DNA of 64,000 nucleotides from Bacteroidales bacterium. Lineage in GTDB: Bacteria; Bacteroidota; Bacteroidia; Bacteroidales; F082. Position 1 is the stretch's first letter, and each line of letters starts with the position of its first letter. The notes under the pieces are model-generated. The model did not search any database. It was given only the letters and a program-made list of their open reading frames with translations, and was not told the origin of the DNA. Where the stretch lies: contig JAFGXS010000039.1 of assembly GCA_016936505.1 (NCBI GenBank), positions 1 through 64,000 of the forward strand. Direction: 5' to 3'. Below, piece by piece: positions 54,483 through 64,000 of this stretch. A program made the position numbers and the translations under genes.

Positions 54483-55178
54483 TCAACCGATTCTTCCAAG
54501 CATTTCATACAAAGTTTCTTTGTATGAATTTCCAACCGGTAACCATTTGCTATCAATAACAACGCGGTTCTTTTCAACTTTATCAATCTTGGACAAAGAA
54601 ACAATATAGGAACGGTGAATTCTTACAAAGCTATGAACAGGCAATTTATCGGCCATTTGTTGCATTGATATCAATGTCAGTAAATGTTTATTCTTCATCA
54701 CAATTTTAACGTAATCTTTCATTCCTTCCAGATACAGAATTTCATCGTAATTTACTTTGACAAGTTTGGTACCGTCTTTCACAAACATAAAGTCCTGATG
54801 AAATGATTTATATTTATCAGGTTGTTTAACATTTGCAGCCAAAGCTTTATTCACCGACTTTAAAAAGCGCTCAAAAGAAAAAGGTTTTACCAGATAGTCC
54901 AAAGCATCCAGTTCAAATCCAGTAACGGCATAATTGCTGTAAGCGGTAGTAAAAATTACGAGTGGCTTTTTAGATAACGAGCTATACAGCTGAATTCCTG
55001 AAAGATCAGGCATCTGAATATCTAAAAAAATCAAATCCACAGATTCGGTTTGCAATACCTGCAGTGCTTCAAACCCATTTTGGCAGGAAGCTACTACTTT
55101 GAGCTGAGGAACTTTTACTGCAAATGTTTCCAGAATTTCTCTGGCAAGAGGCTCGTCATCAACAATTAAGCAGTTCAT
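54483..55178 (-). CDS. LytTR-family response regulator
   Basis: 231 aa. Receiver 1-120 with Asp7, Asp8, phospho-acceptor Asp53 (FLDIQMPDLSG) and Lys98 (KPFSFERFL). The LytTR DNA-binding domain is about 130-231 (VNYDEILYLEGMKDYVKI, FVRIHRSYIVSLSKID). It is paired with the LytS-type kinase immediately upstream (4-nt overlap). The targets could include the Met/Gly-rich gene and barrel that follow on the same strand after a 108-nt gap. Confidence 0.94.
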   Translation of the reverse strand: MNCLIVDDEPLAREILETFAVKVPQLKVVASCQNGFEALQVLQTESVDLIFLDIQMPDLSGIQLYSSLSKKPLVIFTTAYSNYAVTGFELDALDYLVKPFSFERFLKSVNKALAANVKQPDKYKSFHQDFMFVKDGTKLVKVNYDEILYLEGMKDYVKIVMKNKHLLTLISMQQMADKLPVHSFVRIHRSYIVSLSKIDKVEKNRVVIDSKWLPVGNSYKETLYEMLGRIG

Positions 55179-56245
55179 GCCATTTTTAAATTAAGTTTTA
55201 AATCCACGCGAAAATAACCTTTTTCTGCTCCGTAATTCAAGGAATACCTTCCTCCATAATGGAGATCCAGCCTTTTCTTAACATTAGACAAGCCAATTCC
55301 TGAAGCTTTATCCTTACTTTTTGCTTCCGAAACACGGTTCAGTACAGAAAAATGAAGCTGATTATCTGCTACCACAAGGTTGATTTTAATTTCAGAACCA
55401 TGAGCATCGACTCCGTGTTTGAAGGCGTTTTCAACAAAGGGAATGAAAAGAAGCGGTTCAATTTCAAAATCACTTGTTAAATTAGTAGTTTCAAATGTAA
55501 TATCTGCATTTGCCGGTAAACGCAACTTTTGAAGCTGGATATAATTCTTTAAATAATCTACTTCTTTGCTCAAAAGCACCTTATCTTCATCTGCATCATA
55601 AAGCATATGGCGCAATAAATCTGATAACTGTAATACAGCATCAGGCGTTTTATCAGACTTCTTTATGGCTAAAGCATAGATTCCATTCAAACTATTGAAC
55701 AAAAAATGAGGATTAACCTGTGACTTCAAAAAAGATAGTTCAGATACCAGTTTTTGTTTTTCAATCTCTTTCCTGACTTTTTCCTGCTGGTACCATTCTT
55801 TGGTTTCGTACAATACGGTACTGATTAAAAAACCGAGCAACACGAACACTGCCGTGCCAGTATTTTCGGCATTCCGCCTTCTTTCCCAACGATGAAGACG
55901 AATATTCGGGGTTTTAAGTGTTGTTTTTTGATCAGTTACAAGTGGTTTAACAGGTGTATATATATCATGAACATAAGCCATTGCTGAATCATTTACATAA
56001 TAGGTGAGTACTACACTTAAAACAAGAACCGTAGCAAACAGCAACTGTCTTTTTCTAAGCAACAAAAATGGAACAAATAAAAAATAATTCAGGTAGAAAA
56101 AAAAGAAAACCAGTATGAAATGGAGGTTTCGTTTTATCAGGTCTATTTCTCCACTTGGTGCATCAAATAATAAATCAGGTAAAAAATAAAAGGCGACCCA
56201 AGCCAGGATATGTAGTGCAATTACAAATATTCTTCGAATTTTCAT
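55175..56245 (-). CDS. LytS/YpdA-type sensor histidine kinase
   Basis: 356 aa. Four membrane segments lie in the first 150 residues (LHILAWVAFYFLPDLLF, FILVFFFFYLNYFLFVPFLL, TVLVLSVVLTYYV, AVFVLLGFLISTVLY). A coiled linker and the His_kinase domain follow, with His180 in SQVNPHFLFNSLNGIYALA. The ATP domain has FVENAFKHG and GIGLSNVKKRLDLHYG. This arrangement is the standard Bacteroidota partner of LytTR regulators. The outer loop of about 25 residues between helices 3 and 4 is probably too short for ligand capture, so sensing may occur in the membrane. Confidence 0.93.
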   Translation of the reverse strand: MKIRRIFVIALHILAWVAFYFLPDLLFDAPSGEIDLIKRNLHFILVFFFFYLNYFLFVPFLLLRKRQLLFATVLVLSVVLTYYVNDSAMAYVHDIYTPVKPLVTDQKTTLKTPNIRLHRWERRRNAENTGTAVFVLLGFLISTVLYETKEWYQQEKVRKEIEKQKLVSELSFLKSQVNPHFLFNSLNGIYALAIKKSDKTPDAVLQLSDLLRHMLYDADEDKVLLSKEVDYLKNYIQLQKLRLPANADITFETTNLTSDFEIEPLLFIPFVENAFKHGVDAHGSEIKINLVVADNQLHFSVLNRVSEAKSKDKASGIGLSNVKKRLDLHYGGRYSLNYGAEKGYFRVDLKLNLKMA

Positions 56246-56388: not shown

Positions 56389-58503
56389 ATGAGATATATC
56401 TTATTTTGTATTATATTGATTTTCAGCATATCATCCTGTAATTCAATAAGCACAAAAACTGAGTCTATGAAGAATAAAAATCCATTAATTGGAAAGTTTG
56501 ATACCCCCTTTGAGGTCCCTCCATTTGATAAAATAACTTCAAATGATTACTATCAGGCTTTTGAAACCGGAATTAATGAACAAAACAATGAAATTTCAGC
56601 CATTATAAACGGTAAAGAAGAACCTGACTTTGTCAATACCATCGAAGCTCTTGAAAAAAGCGGGAGCCTCATAAAAAGAACAAATACGATCTTTCAAAAT
56701 TTGCTTTCTGCAAATACAAATATAGAACTCCAAAAACTGGCAACAAAAATTGCCCCCAGGTTGTCGTCACATTATGACAACATTCTCATGAATGAGCATC
56801 TGTTCAAAAAAATACAAAAAGTATACAATGACAGAAACCAGCTAACGCTCGATACAGAACAAAAGATGCTTTTAAAAAAAACTTATCAGAAATTTGTAAG
56901 AGGCGGAGCTGAATTAAATGAAAATGATAAAGAACAATTAAAAGAAATCAACAGTCAACTTAGTATCCTTTCATTGCATTTTGGCGATCACGTTTTAGAT
57001 GATAATAATAATTTTCGTCTGCATATTAATGAAGAAAAAGACCTTTCCGGATTGCCAGAATCCATTATCGAAGCAGCAAAAGAAACGGCTAAGGGTTCTC
57101 AAAAAAGTGACAGTTGGGGTTTTACTTTAGACAAGCCCAGCCTGATTCCCTTTTTGCAATTCTCAAATAACAGAGAGTTAAGAAAAAGAATGTTTCAGGG
57201 TTATATTATGCGTGGTGATAATAACAACCAAAACGACAACAAAGAAATTGTTGAAAAGATGGTAAATCTTCGGCTGCAAAAAGCCAAGCTATTAGGATAT
57301 GACTCATACGCAGACTACGTATTGGAACAAAGCATGGCCAAAACACCCGAACAGGTTTTTAAACTTTTAGGACAAATAACGCCCCAGGCCATGCAACTTG
57401 CTGAAGAAGAAGCATCAGAATTACAAAAAATGGCAACGAAAGACGGAATCAAACGAATACAACCCTGGGACTGGTGGTATTACACTGAAAAACTTCGTCA
57501 AAAAAAATACAATCTTAACGAAGAAGAACTTCGTCCTTATTTCTCATTAGATGACGCAAAAAAAGGACTCTTTGATGTTTTAAAAAGCCTTTACGGAATT
57601 CAATTCATCCCGAATAATCAGATCCCCGTTTATCAAAAAGATGTTGAGGCGTATGAGGTAAAAGAAGCCAATGGGAAATTAATTGGTATTTTATATATGG
57701 ATTTTTTCCCAAGACCCAGCAAGCAAGGAGGTGCCTGGATGACTTCCTACAGAAAACAACGATACGAAAACGAGAAAAATATTATACCTGTTATTTCTGT
57801 TAACTTCAATTTCACCAAACCCACTGCCACTCAGCCAGCCTTATTGAGCTTTGATGAAGTTGAAACCCTATTTCACGAATGTGGCCATGCCATGCACGGA
57901 CTTTTCAGCGATTGTCAATACGAAAGTCTTTCCGGTACAGCCGTGCCCCGCGATTTCGTTGAGATGCCCTCACAAATTATGGAAAACTGGGCCTCAGAAC
58001 CCGAAGTATTAAAAAGTTATGCCAAAAACTATAAAACAGGAGAGACAATTCCTGACAGTCTAATCAAAAAGATGCAAGAAAGTGGCAGGTTTAATCTTGG
58101 CTTTACACTTACAGAGTATCTGGCAGCTTCGTATTTAGATATGGACTGGCACACACTTTCAGAACCTTTCGAACAAAATGTCAACACGTTTGAAAGTGAA
58201 GCCATGAAAAAAATTCATCTGATTTCAGAAATTGAACCCCGTTATAGAAGTACATATTTTAATCATATTTTTTCTGGAGGATATGCTGCAGGATATTACA
58301 GCTATGTTTGGGCTGAGGTTCTGGATGCTGATGCATTCCAATCTTTTTTGAACACTTCTTTATTTGATAAGGAAACTGCCGAACGGTTCAGAAATGAGGT
58401 ATTATCAAAAGGTGGAACTGACGAACCGGAAAACTTGTTCAGAAAATTCAAAGGCAGAGATCCAGACCCAAAGGCTTACATGCAAAAAAAGGGGTTACAA
58501 TAA
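56389..58503 (+). CDS. dcp: M3-family peptidyl-dipeptidase (Dcp-like) lipoprotein
   Basis: 704 aa. Lipoprotein signal MRYILFCIILIFSISSC with Cys17. The rest is an M3A thermolysin-like metallopeptidase: HECGH zinc motif at 496-500 (TLFHECGHAMHGLF), with the third zinc ligand Glu expected in the following EMPSQIMENWA, and the FSGGYAAGYYSYVWAEVLDADAF substrate segment. The length and motifs match Dcp (peptidyl-dipeptidase), which trims C-terminal dipeptides in the periplasm. It is lipid-anchored. A CAACTTTG, one mismatch from the -7 consensus, overlaps the region right before the ATG. Confidence 0.93.
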   Translation: MRYILFCIILIFSISSCNSISTKTESMKNKNPLIGKFDTPFEVPPFDKITSNDYYQAFETGINEQNNEISAIINGKEEPDFVNTIEALEKSGSLIKRTNTIFQNLLSANTNIELQKLATKIAPRLSSHYDNILMNEHLFKKIQKVYNDRNQLTLDTEQKMLLKKTYQKFVRGGAELNENDKEQLKEINSQLSILSLHFGDHVLDDNNNFRLHINEEKDLSGLPESIIEAAKETAKGSQKSDSWGFTLDKPSLIPFLQFSNNRELRKRMFQGYIMRGDNNNQNDNKEIVEKMVNLRLQKAKLLGYDSYADYVLEQSMAKTPEQVFKLLGQITPQAMQLAEEEASELQKMATKDGIKRIQPWDWWYYTEKLRQKKYNLNEEELRPYFSLDDAKKGLFDVLKSLYGIQFIPNNQIPVYQKDVEAYEVKEANGKLIGILYMDFFPRPSKQGGAWMTSYRKQRYENEKNIIPVISVNFNFTKPTATQPALLSFDEVETLFHECGHAMHGLFSDCQYESLSGTAVPRDFVEMPSQIMENWASEPEVLKSYAKNYKTGETIPDSLIKKMQESGRFNLGFTLTEYLAASYLDMDWHTLSEPFEQNVNTFESEAMKKIHLISEIEPRYRSTYFNHIFSGGYAAGYYSYVWAEVLDADAFQSFLNTSLFDKETAERFRNEVLSKGGTDEPENLFRKFKGRDPDPKAYMQKKGLQ

Positions 58504-58543: not shown

Positions 58544-59242
58544 ATGAAAAAAACATACTCAATTTTAGCTTTCATTGTCATTTTGTTGCAAATTCCCACC
58601 CAGGGAAAATCACAAGACAGGTCATTATCAAAAGATCTCTATGGACTGAACCCTCTGCTTTACAATGGTGAATATTATACGTACAGTCCGCCGGCCAATA
58701 CAAAAGGAAATCAATTTTTGAAGAATAACCATTTCTTTTTGGGATCAGTAGAAATCAAGGGCACCGTTTACGATTCCCTGAAACTAAACTACGATGTTTT
58801 CAATCAGAAATTGATTATGGAATTTCATACAGTTCAGAACAACAGACTACTGATAAGCCTTTCAAGTGCATGGCTTGACTCATTCACAATTAACAACATG
58901 CATTTTAGATCATTAAAGGTAGATGGGCACCAAAAAGAATTCTTTCAAGCTTTTGGGGATGGATATTTTAAGATTTTATATTTCTGGCACAAGAATATGA
59001 ATTTTGTCAGTAGCACAGGTTCTTCGTATTATGTGTTTTCCAGACTCTATAAAACATCCATGCTTTTGGAAGGTAACAACACCCGAATTTTTAAATCCAA
59101 CACTCAGTTTATTCGTTTATTCAGTAAAAACAAAAGACAACTGATAGGAAAATTCATCAGGCAACACAAAATAAACCTGCGAAAAGCTAGCGATAATCAG
59201 GTACAGGAATTAATTAACTATTGCAATACTCTTCCCCGATGA
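58544..59242 (+). CDS. Secreted protein of unknown function, first in the receptor/DUF4249 operon
   Basis: 232 aa with a signal peptide (YSILAFIVILLQIPTQGKSQ). The mature part is mixed, with beta segments (EYYTYSPPA, FFLGSVEIKGTVYDSLKLNYDVFNQKLIMEF) and a basic C-terminal helical region (RLFSKNKRQLIGKFIRQHKINLRKA). I recognise no family. Its ATGA stop/start overlaps the TonB receptor start at 59239, which indicates coupled translation and a shared role, perhaps as a periplasmic accessory to that receptor. Confidence 0.7.
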   Translation: MKKTYSILAFIVILLQIPTQGKSQDRSLSKDLYGLNPLLYNGEYYTYSPPANTKGNQFLKNNHFFLGSVEIKGTVYDSLKLNYDVFNQKLIMEFHTVQNNRLLISLSSAWLDSFTINNMHFRSLKVDGHQKEFFQAFGDGYFKILYFWHKNMNFVSSTGSSYYVFSRLYKTSMLLEGNNTRIFKSNTQFIRLFSKNKRQLIGKFIRQHKINLRKASDNQVQELINYCNTLPR

Positions 59243-62007
59243 AAAGATATAATATATTAGCCATTATTCTGCTATTCAGTTTAACCTCTTTTGCGCAAAA
59301 CAAAGAGAAAAAATATAACTGGCATATCAATCACCTGACGTTTAAAGAATTTACAAAACTCGTTCTTGATAAATCTAACATAAAGATTTATTACCAGCAA
59401 GAATGGGTAAAGAATGTTAATATTACTTTAAATAATGACAGCCTAACCGTTTTGCAGGCTGTAAGACAAGCTCTTGACGAAACTATTATCACTGCTTCAT
59501 ACTGGAACAACGACATTGTATTAATTCCACAGGGAGAGTTAGTTAACAAACTTCCTAGTTTCGATAACAAAGTTACTGTTGTTGAGGAGACTCCGAAAAA
59601 GAAATCATATACGGCCAGTGAAGACAGATACCTTAAAGGCCGAAGACCTGATGTTATAAAAACAATTCAGATTGGGGTTCAGGGAGGAACAATAGAAAGA
59701 GGAAAAGCCAAGGTTCTTGGTAGGGTTCTTGATGAAGAAACAGGTGAACCTATAAGCTATGCAACAGTTTATATTGAAGAAACAAAATCAGGTGCCGTTA
59801 CCGGGAACAATGGTTTCTTTGTTTTGATGCTTAAACCCGGAAAATATACCGCCGTATTCAACATTCTCGGATTTCAGCAAAAGAAGTTTTTGTTGAATGT
59901 ATTATCAAATGGAAACTTTACTGTTCAGTTGGCCAAAAAAATGATCAATATCAAAGAAGTGGTAGTTCATGGTGACAGGCAAATGAATGTTAATAAAAAA
60001 GATCCCGGCATTGAAAAAATTCCTGTAAAAAGTATCAAAGAGCTTCCAATGATGATGGGAGAAAGAGATATTATTAAAGTTTCGGCAACCTTACCGGGGA
60101 TTATTGACTCTGAAGGAAGTTCCGGCCTTAATGTTCGAGGTGGTGGTGCTGATCAGAATGCATTCTATATTGATGAGATACCTATTTACAATACAGCTCA
60201 CCTGTTCGGATTTTTTCCGGCATTTAATTCTGACATCATCAAAGATTTCTCAATCTATAAAGGCTATATTCCGGCACAATACGGAGGCCGGTTATCTTCA
60301 GTATTTAATATCGTAACCCGGCAGGGAAATATGAAGCATTTTACTGCTCATGGTGGAGTTAGTCCAATAGCAGGAAATCTGGTAGTAGAAGGCCCCATTG
60401 TAAAAAATTCTCTTTCGTACATTTTTAGTGGACGTTCTACTTATTCAGATTGGATATTGAAAAAAATAAAAGACGTAACCATTAATCAGAGTCAGGCTAA
60501 TTTTTACGACTTCTCAGGCGGTCTAAATTTTGACTCACAAAAGACTCAGGTTTCACTTTTCATGTATCGCAGCAATGACCATTTCAGATTGTCTGACATT
60601 AATGATTATAGTTATGGGAACACCGGTGCCTCGATGATAATCAGTCACAATTTTAGTAATTCATTAAGAGGAACCTTCTCTTTCATCGGTTCTCAATATG
60701 GCTTTGAAACCATAGACAAACAAGAAATTACAACAGCTTACTCACATAGCTATAAATTAGAACATTATGAATTTAAAGCAGGGTTTAAGCAGGTTCTCAC
60801 TAATAAACATACGTTAGCCTATGGATTGGATGCCATTTTATATAAGCTCGACAGGGGAATGGTAGAACCCTATGGCAGATCATCATTAAGAAAAGAAGTG
60901 GATCTAGGAAATGAGAAAGGCATTGCTCCTTCCCTTTACATTTCAGATAATTTTGAGGTAAACCCACGACTTACACTCATGGCAGGAGCTAGGTTAACTC
61001 TCTTTGTTCCTTTAGGTCCTCAAAATGTATATTTATATGACTCCGGCCTGCCTATGGATCTAAGATATGTCAGTGATTCAATTGCTTTTGGTCAGAATCA
61101 GGCCATCACGAAGTATTTTGAACCCGATTTAAGGCTTGCTGTTAATTATAAATTAGATGAGAACACTTCTGTTAAGTTTGCATTTAACCAAATGCATCAG
61201 AACTTGTTTATGTTAAACAACACCATTTCTGTTGCTCCAAATGCCCAATGGAAACTGGCTGATTATCACATAAAACCTTCACACAGCAATCAGATTTCTT
61301 TAGGTCTCTTTCACTTCTTTAACAAAAGTGACATTGAAGCCTCAGTGGAAATGTACTATAAAGAGGAATACAATTATCCCGAATTCAAAGACGGGGCCTC
61401 ATTCCTGAGCACGTCCCACACCGAAACTGCCGTTTTACAAGGTAATGTTAAAGCATACGGAATCGAGTTCTTAATAAAACGAAGCAACCGTAAACTCGAC
61501 GGGTGGCTAAGTTACACCTACTCCAGATCTTTAGTAAAAGTTGATGGAGGAGAAGTTTGGAACAGCATTAACTATGGTCTTACTTATCCTTCAAACTACG
61601 ACATTCCGCATGTTGCCAATCTTGTAATGAATTACCACCTTAGCAGAAGAATTTCTTTCTCAACTATTGTTACTTACCAAAGTGGGAAGCCTGTAACCTA
61701 CCCAATTTCTGTTTATTACAACGATGGCTATCCATACCTTGAATATTCAAAACGCAATGCATACAGAATTCCTGATTATTTCAGAATGGACCTTTCCATG
61801 TCAATTGAAGGAAATTTAAGAAGAAAGAAATTCTTACATAACTCATTATTATTAAGCGTTTATAATGTTACAGGAAGAAAAAATGCATATTCTGTATTCT
61901 TTAAAACAGATAATGGAAGAATTGAAAGTTATAAATATTCAGTAATAGGAGTCCCCATTTTTACGGTAACATGGGTATTTAAATTGGGAAATTATGCCGC
62001 GGATTAA
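59239..62007 (+). CDS. TonB-dependent receptor with STN-like N-terminal domain
   Basis: 922 aa from the ATG at 59239, which overlaps the previous stop (the frame extends six codons upstream). Signal peptide; STN-like domain about 22-100 (INHLTFKEFTKLVLDKSNIKIYYQQEWV, LNNDSLTVLQAVRQAL); CarboxypepD_reg-like about 155-235 (KVLGRVLDEETGEPISYATVY); plug about 245-370 (LPGIIDSEGSSGLNVRGGGADQNAFYIDEIPIYN); then a barrel. STN domains commonly touch FecR-type anti-sigma factors, but no FecI/FecR pair lies nearby. It partners with the DUF4249 lipoproteins downstream. The substrate is unknown. Confidence 0.9.
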   Translation: MKRYNILAIILLFSLTSFAQNKEKKYNWHINHLTFKEFTKLVLDKSNIKIYYQQEWVKNVNITLNNDSLTVLQAVRQALDETIITASYWNNDIVLIPQGELVNKLPSFDNKVTVVEETPKKKSYTASEDRYLKGRRPDVIKTIQIGVQGGTIERGKAKVLGRVLDEETGEPISYATVYIEETKSGAVTGNNGFFVLMLKPGKYTAVFNILGFQQKKFLLNVLSNGNFTVQLAKKMINIKEVVVHGDRQMNVNKKDPGIEKIPVKSIKELPMMMGERDIIKVSATLPGIIDSEGSSGLNVRGGGADQNAFYIDEIPIYNTAHLFGFFPAFNSDIIKDFSIYKGYIPAQYGGRLSSVFNIVTRQGNMKHFTAHGGVSPIAGNLVVEGPIVKNSLSYIFSGRSTYSDWILKKIKDVTINQSQANFYDFSGGLNFDSQKTQVSLFMYRSNDHFRLSDINDYSYGNTGASMIISHNFSNSLRGTFSFIGSQYGFETIDKQEITTAYSHSYKLEHYEFKAGFKQVLTNKHTLAYGLDAILYKLDRGMVEPYGRSSLRKEVDLGNEKGIAPSLYISDNFEVNPRLTLMAGARLTLFVPLGPQNVYLYDSGLPMDLRYVSDSIAFGQNQAITKYFEPDLRLAVNYKLDENTSVKFAFNQMHQNLFMLNNTISVAPNAQWKLADYHIKPSHSNQISLGLFHFFNKSDIEASVEMYYKEEYNYPEFKDGASFLSTSHTETAVLQGNVKAYGIEFLIKRSNRKLDGWLSYTYSRSLVKVDGGEVWNSINYGLTYPSNYDIPHVANLVMNYHLSRRISFSTIVTYQSGKPVTYPISVYYNDGYPYLEYSKRNAYRIPDYFRMDLSMSIEGNLRRKKFLHNSLLLSVYNVTGRKNAYSVFFKTDNGRIESYKYSVIGVPIFTVTWVFKLGNYAAD

Positions 62008-63160
62008 AATAATAATCTTCATATTAATACTTTTATTTCTGATCACCTCTTGTATTGATCCATATACTCCTCAAATACGGTCATCAGACATTAATAAGTA
62101 TGTTGTTATGGGAGAAGTAAATAGTAGCGATTCTTTACAAACCGTGAATGTATCTCTTACTTCCCAAATCGGGGATCCGGAGTATGTTGGCGTTACAGGT
62201 TGCAATGTTACAATTGTGGACAATAGTGGCCATACATTTTCATTAAGTGATCAGGGAAACGGAAGCTATTTGGGACGGATTGATCCACAATATATTGTCA
62301 GTGGGACATCTTTTAAAGTAAACATCAGAACTTCTGATGGTGAAACACTTGAATCTGATTATGATACTGTTTCAAGTTGTCCTCCAATTGATACAGTCTA
62401 TTTTAAGATCACCAGCAAGTATTCAAATAACCAAATTAATAATGCAACAAGAGGAATTCAACTATATGTAGATTTGAATGCAAACGCATCAGAAAGTCAT
62501 TATTATAAATGGAAACTTACAGAAACATGGGAGTACCGAAGTAAATGGCCCATTGAATGGTATTACGATGGAACAGTACACCATGTTTTCCCACCAGATT
62601 ACTCAAAAATGGTCTGCTGGAAAACAGATATTATTCCCGATGTTTTAATCCTGAATACCTCAAATCTTACTCAAAATTCGTACAAAGAATTCCCCCTAAA
62701 CTTTGTGGGAAATTCATCAAGCCGGCTTGAATACGGATATAGTCTTCTTATAGTACAGCAAGCGTTAAGTAAATCAGCCTATGAATTCTGGGATAGGATG
62801 AAGTTGAACAATAATTCTGATGGAGGTTTGTATGAAAAACAACCCCTAACGGTTAAGGGAAATATTCACAATCTGAACAGCACTGGAAAAGAAGTACTTG
62901 GCTACTTTGGAGCATCAAGATCCTATTCCAAAAGAATCTTTATTAGTAATGTTGACAGTCTTGAATTGAATATTACAGGATATTGTAATATCAGAATATT
63001 AAAATACGGGATTCGTGAGATTTTACCTTTTGAATACCCCGTTTATCTTGTTGGAGATGCTGAAAAATATTATAATCTCGCATATACAAGTGAGTGTGTG
63101 AATTGCCTGCTATTGGGCGGCACTAATATTAAACCAAGTTTTTGGCCTAATAAAAAATAG
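61994..63160 (+). CDS. DUF4249 lipoprotein (first copy)
   Basis: 388 aa. Lipobox LITSC with Cys20, then the conserved CIDPYTPQIRSSDINKYVVMGEV. DUF4249 is a Bacteroidota family repeatedly found next to TonB receptors; it is thought to be a surface or periplasmic partner, but its biochemistry is unknown. It starts 14 nt inside the end of the receptor gene, so translation is coupled. The protein is mostly beta strands with Trp-rich patches (KWKLTETWEYRSKWPIEWYYDG). A second copy follows after 27 nt. Confidence 0.88.
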   Translation: MPRIKIIIFILILLFLITSCIDPYTPQIRSSDINKYVVMGEVNSSDSLQTVNVSLTSQIGDPEYVGVTGCNVTIVDNSGHTFSLSDQGNGSYLGRIDPQYIVSGTSFKVNIRTSDGETLESDYDTVSSCPPIDTVYFKITSKYSNNQINNATRGIQLYVDLNANASESHYYKWKLTETWEYRSKWPIEWYYDGTVHHVFPPDYSKMVCWKTDIIPDVLILNTSNLTQNSYKEFPLNFVGNSSSRLEYGYSLLIVQQALSKSAYEFWDRMKLNNNSDGGLYEKQPLTVKGNIHNLNSTGKEVLGYFGASRSYSKRIFISNVDSLELNITGYCNIRILKYGIREILPFEYPVYLVGDAEKYYNLAYTSECVNCLLLGGTNIKPSFWPNKK

Positions 63161-63187
63161 TAGAAATAATATTGTTAATATTTGCTA

Positions 63188-64000
63188 ATGAATCAATTAT
63201 ACAAAATAGGAGTTATCTTCTTGCTGATTTTTTTTACAACATCGTGTATTGACTCTTTTACCCCCCAGATACGGTCATCTGATACCAATAAGTATGTTGT
63301 TATGGGAAATGTAAATAACAGCGATTCAATACAAACTGTAAATATTTCGGTAACATCATCTGTTAGCAAACCTGAATACATAGGAGTTACAGGATGCACA
63401 GTGAATATTATTGATCGCCATGGCAATACCTTTCCATTAAGTGATTGGGGTAACGGAAAATATTCAGGACATGTCAATTCACAAGATATTGTTAGTGGGA
63501 ATTCTTTTAAACTATTCATTAAAACACCAAGTGGAGAAACTATTGAATCTGATTATGATACAGCTTATAGTTGCCCCCCGGTTGACTCAGTTTACTATAA
63601 AATAACCACTGAATACTCAAACAATCAAATTACTGATGGAACAAAAGGCATTCAAATTTACATTGATTTAAATGCTAACGAATCGGAAAGCCATTATTAC
63701 AAATGGAACCTTATCGAAACATGGGAATATCACAGCAAGTGGCCCATTGTTTGGTACTATGATGGAACAATACATAAAGCTTCCCCTCCCGACTATTCAA
63801 AAATGATTTGCTGGGAAACACTTCCCGTCCCGAATATCTATATTTTGAACACAACAAATCTTACACAAAATAAATACAAACAATTCCCTTTGGTTTTTGT
63901 AGGCAACAATACTACAAGACTCGAATATGGCTACAGTTTACTCATCAAACAAGATGCATTAAGCAAACAAGCCTATAATTTCTGGTATAGAATGAGATTA
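63188..64000 (+). CDS. DUF4249 lipoprotein (second, tandem copy), truncated by window end
   Basis: Start ATG at 63188. The frame stays open for 271 codons to the last base, so the stop lies outside. Lipobox TTSC (Cys20), then SFTPQIRSSDTNKYVVMGNV, closely matching the copy upstream over its whole visible length with almost no gaps (shared SHYYKW, TWEY, SKWPI, PPDYSKM, LEYGYSLLI). The pattern indicates tandem duplication followed by divergence. The two may form a hetero-pair or bind different ligands. Confidence 0.9.
   Translation, partial: MNQLYKIGVIFLLIFFTTSCIDSFTPQIRSSDTNKYVVMGNVNNSDSIQTVNISVTSSVSKPEYIGVTGCTVNIIDRHGNTFPLSDWGNGKYSGHVNSQDIVSGNSFKLFIKTPSGETIESDYDTAYSCPPVDSVYYKITTEYSNNQITDGTKGIQIYIDLNANESESHYYKWNLIETWEYHSKWPIVWYYDGTIHKASPPDYSKMICWETLPVPNIYILNTTNLTQNKYKQFPLVFVGNNTTRLEYGYSLLIKQDALSKQAYNFWYRMRL

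Follow-up and report, generated by a model that had tools for sequence, protein, structure and literature searches.

We describe a gene module of Bacteroidota in which a TonB-dependent receptor is encoded together with a protein of an unnamed family (g1), an exported protein with MG2 and CarboxypepD_reg-like domains (the MG2 protein) and long (approximately 385 amino acid) DUF4249 lipoproteins, which, by analogy with the surface lipoproteins of known transporters, we call lids. It is shown or strongly supported that g1, one receptor, at least one long lid and the MG2 protein form a conserved Bacteroidota unit, and likewise that only the lid has been copied again and again, both into tandem arrays and to solitary sites unlinked to the operon, where a genome usually has one receptor of the class. 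The best explanation as a whole, to which we give roughly an even chance, is that the module is an outer membrane uptake cassette whose paralogous lids share one receptor.

The operon and its surroundings

The window, that is the whole stretch of DNA analysed, comprises positions 1–64000 of contig C76 of a draft genome (3.04 Mb, 93 contigs; labelled G000 here), and coordinates above 64000 are contig coordinates that continue its numbering. A single forward operon (locus L005) runs in the order g1, receptor, d1, d2, d3, d4 and MG2 protein. The g1 gene (58544–59242) encodes a 232 amino acid exported, non-lipidated protein; the gene of the 922 amino acid receptor (59239–62007) has its ATG at 59239 and a 4-nt overlap with the g1 stop; d1 (61994–63160; 388 amino acids) overlaps the end of the receptor gene by 14 nt; and a gap of 27 nt separates d1 from d2 (63188–64363). 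The earlier note on this DNA had given these genes, overlaps and gap correctly. It had, however, counted two DUF4249 copies where there are really four in tandem, as the window edge at 64000 cuts d2 and hid d3 (64402–65610) and d4 (65613–66755). Extension of the contig past that edge, which the note had put forward as a check, recovered the rest of d2, d3, d4 and, one base after d4, the gene for the exported 571 amino acid MG2/CarboxypepD_reg protein (66757–68472). The lids d1 to d4 score 102.0–122.2 bits against the whole DUF4249 profile (PF14054; curated cut-off 28.5) and are the sole DUF4249 matches genome-wide (E ≤ 0.001); the lid tree described below places d1 and d2 in class I, and d3 and d4 in class II. 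Scans for promoters and terminators were uninformative (44 against 43.1 expected and 5 against 5.8 expected, respectively).

The gene of a Dcp-like M3 peptidase with a lipobox-type signal (56389–58503) ends 40 nt upstream of g1, and upstream of it lies a divergent pair encoding a LytTR response regulator and a histidine kinase (54483–56245), which is kept beside the peptidase in several congeners. Downstream of the operon, outside the window, is the gene of an M56 (BlaR1-like) peptidase with a TonB C-terminal domain (68926–70203; L005:12927-14204); it has an in-frame TGA at about 69274 in the draft and uninterrupted copies in congeners, and is either a broken gene or an assembly error. Long lids occur in three of 12 genomes of the genus, and in all three (G000, G007 and G001) the module stands directly after the Dcp-like M3 peptidase gene, which is present without the module in G005, G011, G006 and G002. 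In module-free G005 and G011, BlaI and M56-TonB genes follow the peptidase after 2.3 kb and 1.1 kb, respectively; in G006 and G002 the M56-TonB gene follows it and BlaI is unlisted by the ORF call. After the module itself come BlaI and M56 in G000 and G001 and another gene in G007. The M3 peptidase, BlaI and M56-TonB genes occur without the cassette in congeners, and are thus neighbours and not members of the module. In a tree of the peptidase the three bearers group together (support 95/99) and the four module-free congeners group separately, so a single gain or a single loss suffices to explain the distribution.

Proteins of the module

The receptor has a signal peptide followed by STN-like, CarboxypepD_reg-like, plug and barrel domains. 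The plug is recognised by Pfam (E 2.8e-7), and the Pfam barrel model, without a match in the window receptor, is matched in 12 of 40 relatives; together plug and barrel span approximately 670 residues, as in ordinary TonB-dependent transporters rather than as in SusC. Among receptors of solved structure, XusA is closest in sequence (PDB 9gbc; residues 156–405, E 3.7e-11). The earlier description of the receptor as STN-containing holds for some relatives, with the domain found in one of 11 (E 0.0015) and in 16 of 40 (E ≤ 0.01, best 1.6e-7), but Pfam does not list it in the window receptor at E ≤ 0.1; set against one another, these results indicate a domain that is STN-like but divergent here. 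At this locus, no FecR/sigma-factor pair, the expected companion of a FecA-like STN-type signalling receptor, was present among the Pfam-scanned neighbours or in the neighbouring ORF lists.

For g1, structure prediction gives a 12-stranded beta meander with C-terminal helices (pLDDT 91.8). Foldseek returned no match for this model at E ≤ 0.001 (best 0.13), comparison with sequences of solved structures gave a best E of 0.79, and no Pfam family was found in more than two of 71 members, the best E value among those being 0.01. Kinship of g1 with the receptor or the lid was also considered, and dropped as the profile matches were only at chance level. In the MG2 protein the MG2 domain has an E value of 6.3e-7, just below the Pfam cut-off, and the CarboxypepD_reg-like domain is weak; its second half weakly resembles the regulatory domain and plug of the receptor (hhalign probability 56%, E 1.1e-4, in a single comparison). 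Matches of the MG2 profile to beta-arrestin (E 0.024 and worse) were taken as chance. Both g1 and the MG2 protein are nearly always single-copy in the module.

The lids d1 and d2 carry a lipobox-type signal, SC|ID, and a crude pattern finds a lipobox in 99 of 115 lids, 12 of 85 g1 proteins, 12 of 79 MG2 proteins and 13 of 90 receptors; by this sequence pattern only the lids look like lipoproteins within the module. The N-termini agree with the earlier claim that all products are exported, but lipoprotein-like signals are seen on the lids only. The classical acid-rich surface-export signal is C-I-D-[PS]-[YF]-[TK]-P, and d1 to d4 are without a match to this consensus, so that the surface exposure of the lids is putative. 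Across 19 aligned lids five cysteines do not vary, among them the lipidated one and those of a C-terminal CxxC. The predicted structure of d1 (pLDDT 93.1) is beta-rich and consists of two Ig/FnIII-like sandwiches, and Foldseek gives 29 matches at E ≤ 0.001, mostly of Ig, FnIII or cytokine-receptor type; as the query TM is at most approximately 0.20, these suggest a fold class only. Against sequences of solved structures the best E value for the lid was 0.091. No member of the SusD family, whose lids are alpha-helical and of TPR type, is found among the lids, to which Pfam assigns DUF4249 only, consistent with the beta-rich, Ig-like predicted model.

Conservation of the module

Profiles of the four families were used to annotate L005, 11 loci of relatives and 80 further loci, the latter being the best receptor matches of at least 589 and not a random sample. 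With the receptor cut set at 900 bits, which dropped L041 (456 bits), 93 receptors remained. Directly upstream of 87 of these 93 lies g1, and three of the other six loci start at a contig edge; an MG2 gene lies downstream in 82 of the 93, with ten of the other 11 running into a contig end and L043 having its MG2 gene two genes later. Of the 82 operons extending as far as MG2, 80 have at least one lid. The hosts, as judged by record titles, include Bacteroidales, Cytophagales, Flavobacteriia, Chitinophagaceae and Mucilaginibacter. Since the arrangement recurs with 93 receptors of many lineages, it is beyond chance; the earlier note had named its loss in neighbouring homologues as a refutation, and these counts show that it is retained.

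A similar association is seen in genome samples. Among 60 genomes of the window's family, MG2 was found in 31 and a long lid in 32, both being present in 31 and neither in 28. Among 295 genomes of the order, a long lid was found in 53 (E ≤ 1e-40) and g1 in 99 (E ≤ 1e-10); this lid scan scored six candidates per genome in most genomes, so that array sizes there are lower bounds. Of the best 67 g1 matches in the 295 genomes, 56 have a long lid no more than 12 kb away, and such a g1 accompanies 56 of the 72 lid clusters. Three loci (L150, L153 and L186) have equal content in the alternative order receptor, lid, MG2 and g1.

Weaker relatives of g1 stand alone, and g1 therefore belongs to a wider family. 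One such relative is found elsewhere in the window's genome (L147:7785-8492; G000:C40), without a lid or MG2 and convergent with a gene for an 839 amino acid TonB-dependent receptor; at another locus (L149:7816-9294; G038:C5) there are tandem g1-like genes, of which one is split over two frames, and the other three module families are missing. The genus also has a shorter class (L051, L054 and others), with receptors of approximately 800 amino acids and DUF4249 proteins of approximately 290 amino acids, without MG2 or g1, which is probably nearer to ordinary DUF4249 pairs.

Age and repeated multiplication of the lids

The earlier note took the DUF4249 copies for a recent duplication. The lids d1 to d4, all full-length frames, are only 47–64% identical in pairwise protein comparison, and 17–33 of the 66–89 fourfold-degenerate sites compared per pair (26–42%) are identical. 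With protein identity this low and silent sites near saturation the duplication is old, and this divergence together with the lid trees rules out a recent origin. A tree of 20 long lids places d1 and d2 together with lids 1–3 of the congener G007 (support 100/99) and joins d3 and d4 to lids 4–5 of that genome (97/93), in agreement with operon order; this grouping and order indicate that both lid classes already existed before the two species separated. Of the five lids of the congener, two pairs are more recent, at 80% and 86% identity. In comparisons across the two species, identity is 81% for the receptor, 66% for g1, 61% for the MG2 protein and 55–58% for the best lid pairs.

Among the 82 operons reaching MG2, 63 have a single lid, 17 have two to five and two have none detected; L108, which the script scored as two lids, is a single gene split between two frames, and multi-lid operons thus number 16 of 82. 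With L108 counted as multiple, the single or multiple state changes at least 15 times on the receptor tree, which leaves out partial receptors of less than 850 amino acids. In a tree of 120 lids, built by a short search and midpoint rooted, 12 of 18 arrays form their own clades, four others fall into joint clades two by two (L005 with L035, and L122 with L131) and two arrays are mixed with single lids of other loci; identity within arrays ranges from 42% to 86%. L122 belongs to Allomuricauda ochracea JGD-17 and has five lids, and L131 to Muricauda myxillae 2012CJ39-3 with three. These trees suggest approximately 14 separate lid expansions, with the reservation that gene conversion could imitate this pattern: by acting within arrays, it would give old, shared duplicates the look of independent ones. 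L063 and L065, whose receptors are sisters in the tree, are a possible example.

Array lids of seven array groups were compared region by region with their eight nearest single lids, and no consistently diversifying segment was found (permutation p 0.55). A candidate diversifying loop at approximately residues 260–295, where conservation at first looked weaker in the two arrays of the genus, was not consistent over the seven groups. Ligand specialisation of the lids is thus not shown by this comparison, and a higher gene dosage would look alike.

Solitary lids and the number of receptors

Long lids also occur apart from the module. In the sample of the window's family, ten lids in six genomes lie away from receptor, g1 and MG2, six of them flanked by unrelated genes on both sides and four with a contig end on one side. 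Further solitary lids of intact length were found in the order, three in G306 and one each in G294, G302 and G148 (six in four genomes), and 12 of the 16 solitary lids of intact length have unrelated genes on both sides. Out of 16 lid clusters without a strong g1 nearby, ten were examined, of which six were solitary, including one broken fragment (in G195), and four were operons or pieces of operons. Two solitary lids are kept as orthologues in species pairs (G355/G346 and G318/G330; loci L162/L168 and L171/L172).

Exactly one receptor of the long class was found in nine of nine genomes and, in a second set that shares G306 with the first, in 14 of 18. The exceptions are G148 and G154, with three each, G240, with three of which two score approximately 800 bits, and G353, where a contig end truncates the receptor and none is counted. 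G306, assembled in ten contigs and 98% complete, encodes a single receptor and eight lids, of which five lie in the operon and three are solitary. These gene counts lead us to infer that several lids share one receptor here. Against this, solitary lids could serve other transporters.

Comparison with known transporters

DUF4249 is no longer quite without a function, as the earlier note had it: the DUF4249 protein BT2173 is proposed to work with the TonB-dependent transporter BT2172, encoded in a conserved operon, and disruption of either gene is reported to have similar consequences (Price et al. preprint, via PMC11003636). The likeness to the window module lies in a receptor encoded beside a DUF4249 protein with which it is proposed to act jointly; the difference is that one receptor and one DUF4249 gene are described in that text, whereas the module has fixed g1 and MG2 proteins and multiplied lids.

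In the siderophore system XusAB and the vitamin B12 system BtuBG, both of Bacteroides, the ligand is captured by a lipoprotein at the cell surface, which then shuts the transporter like a lid (PMC13142918 and PMC10404256). XusA (PMC13142918; 9gbc) resembles the module's receptor in having a carboxypeptidase-like domain, a plug and a 22-strand barrel under a surface lipoprotein lid; unlike the two predicted Ig-like domains of the DUF4249 lid, however, XusB is a DUF4374 seven-bladed propeller, and the portion of that paper available mentions the carboxypeptidase-like domain of XusA with no sign of STN, g1 or MG2. BtuBG (PMC10404256) is similar in placing a lid on an ordinary-sized transporter with which further lipoproteins loosely associate, and its authors ask whether such lipoproteins act between loci. 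BtuG and BtuH are, in contrast, different proteins, and three loci there each have their own BtuB, where the module has one receptor and several paralogous lids. SusCD and RagAB likewise combine a TonB-dependent receptor, with an N-terminal CarboxypepD_reg domain, and a lipoprotein lid, but the module's lids are not of the SusD family and its plug and barrel are of ordinary size. The earlier suggestion of an uptake system distinct from SusCD therefore fits the Ig/FnIII-like predicted lid fold and the plug and barrel of approximately 670 residues.

Proposed mechanism and alternatives

We propose that each DUF4249 lipoprotein would sit on the receptor as a hinged lid that captures ligand, in the manner of XusB on XusA and BtuG on BtuB, and that paralogous lids might alternate on the one receptor, so that one energised pore would serve several related small ligands or variants of a ligand. 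That DUF4249 proteins are lids is supported by this analogy and by the genetics of BT2172/BT2173, and contact between lid and receptor is likewise proposed by analogy; the conserved pairing of receptor and lid genes (80 of 82) and the lipobox on lids are consistent with a transporter–lid complex. PMC10404256 gives 75 kDa for ordinary transporters and 120 kDa for SusC, and a plug and barrel of approximately 670 residues, near the former, points to a small ligand; candidates would be siderophore-, cofactor- or small-peptide-like. In this scheme the receptor would always work with g1 and the MG2 protein, and its STN-like domain may couple it to a periplasmic partner. The fuller form of the proposal is a hub with exchangeable lids, in which tandem and solitary paralogues each have their own ligand and share one receptor, and diet is widened by way of lids and not pores; this we hold tentatively, at somewhat below an even chance.

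It may instead be that tandem lids are functionally equivalent and raise the amount of one lid, with birth and death of copies and with divergence as drift under a common constraint. The absence of region-specific divergence among array lids, the young lid pairs of G007 (80% and 86% identical) and the broken solitary fragment in G195 would all be expected of such a dosage effect; yet d1 to d4 have kept full-length frames at 47–64% identity and near-saturated silent sites, two lid classes stand in equal order in two species, and orthologous solitary lids persist in two pairs of species; we consider this reading unlikely. The same multiplication could serve evasion rather than ligand range, if the lids mask or vary the exposed face of the receptor against phages, bacteriocins or predators. 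Expansion that is repeated and restricted to the surface lipoprotein is compatible with this, as is the patchy presence of the long lids (in three of 12 genomes of the genus and, at E ≤ 1e-40, in 53 of the 295 from the order), but seven array groups revealed no hypervariable lid segment and all lids of the window locus lie in one forward operon. We consider this reading improbable.

A further alternative, in our view improbable, gives up uptake altogether: the genes would encode a complex for assembly or sensing at the surface, with signalling by the STN-like domain and protein handling by the MG2 protein, whose C-terminal half is receptor-like. The STN-like domain in 16 of 40 receptors, the MG2 and CarboxypepD_reg domains of the last gene and the weak profile similarity between the second half of its product and the regulatory domain and plug of the receptor lend themselves to this idea. 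Against it, the receptor keeps its plug and barrel, no FecR/sigma pair is annotated beside the operon, and BT2172/BT2173 are reported to behave as a transporter pair (PMC11003636).

Implications

Partnership of DUF4249 with a TonB-dependent transporter has already been proposed for BT2172/BT2173 (PMC11003636). A literature search, with bioRxiv and most subscription papers outside its reach, found no report of several DUF4249 lids per receptor, which is weak evidence of absence. In the systems compared here (SusCD, BtuBG and XusAB), every transporter has a lid of its own in the published descriptions. If our preferred reading, in which paralogous lids share one receptor, is true, substrate range could evolve by the copying of a small lipoprotein, and solitary lids now annotated as hypothetical could be predicted to belong to a transporter encoded at another locus. 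Two unnamed families, g1 and the MG2 protein, gain a testable partner, and the question of DUF4249 function would become one of which lid binds what, and whether lids compete for the receptor.
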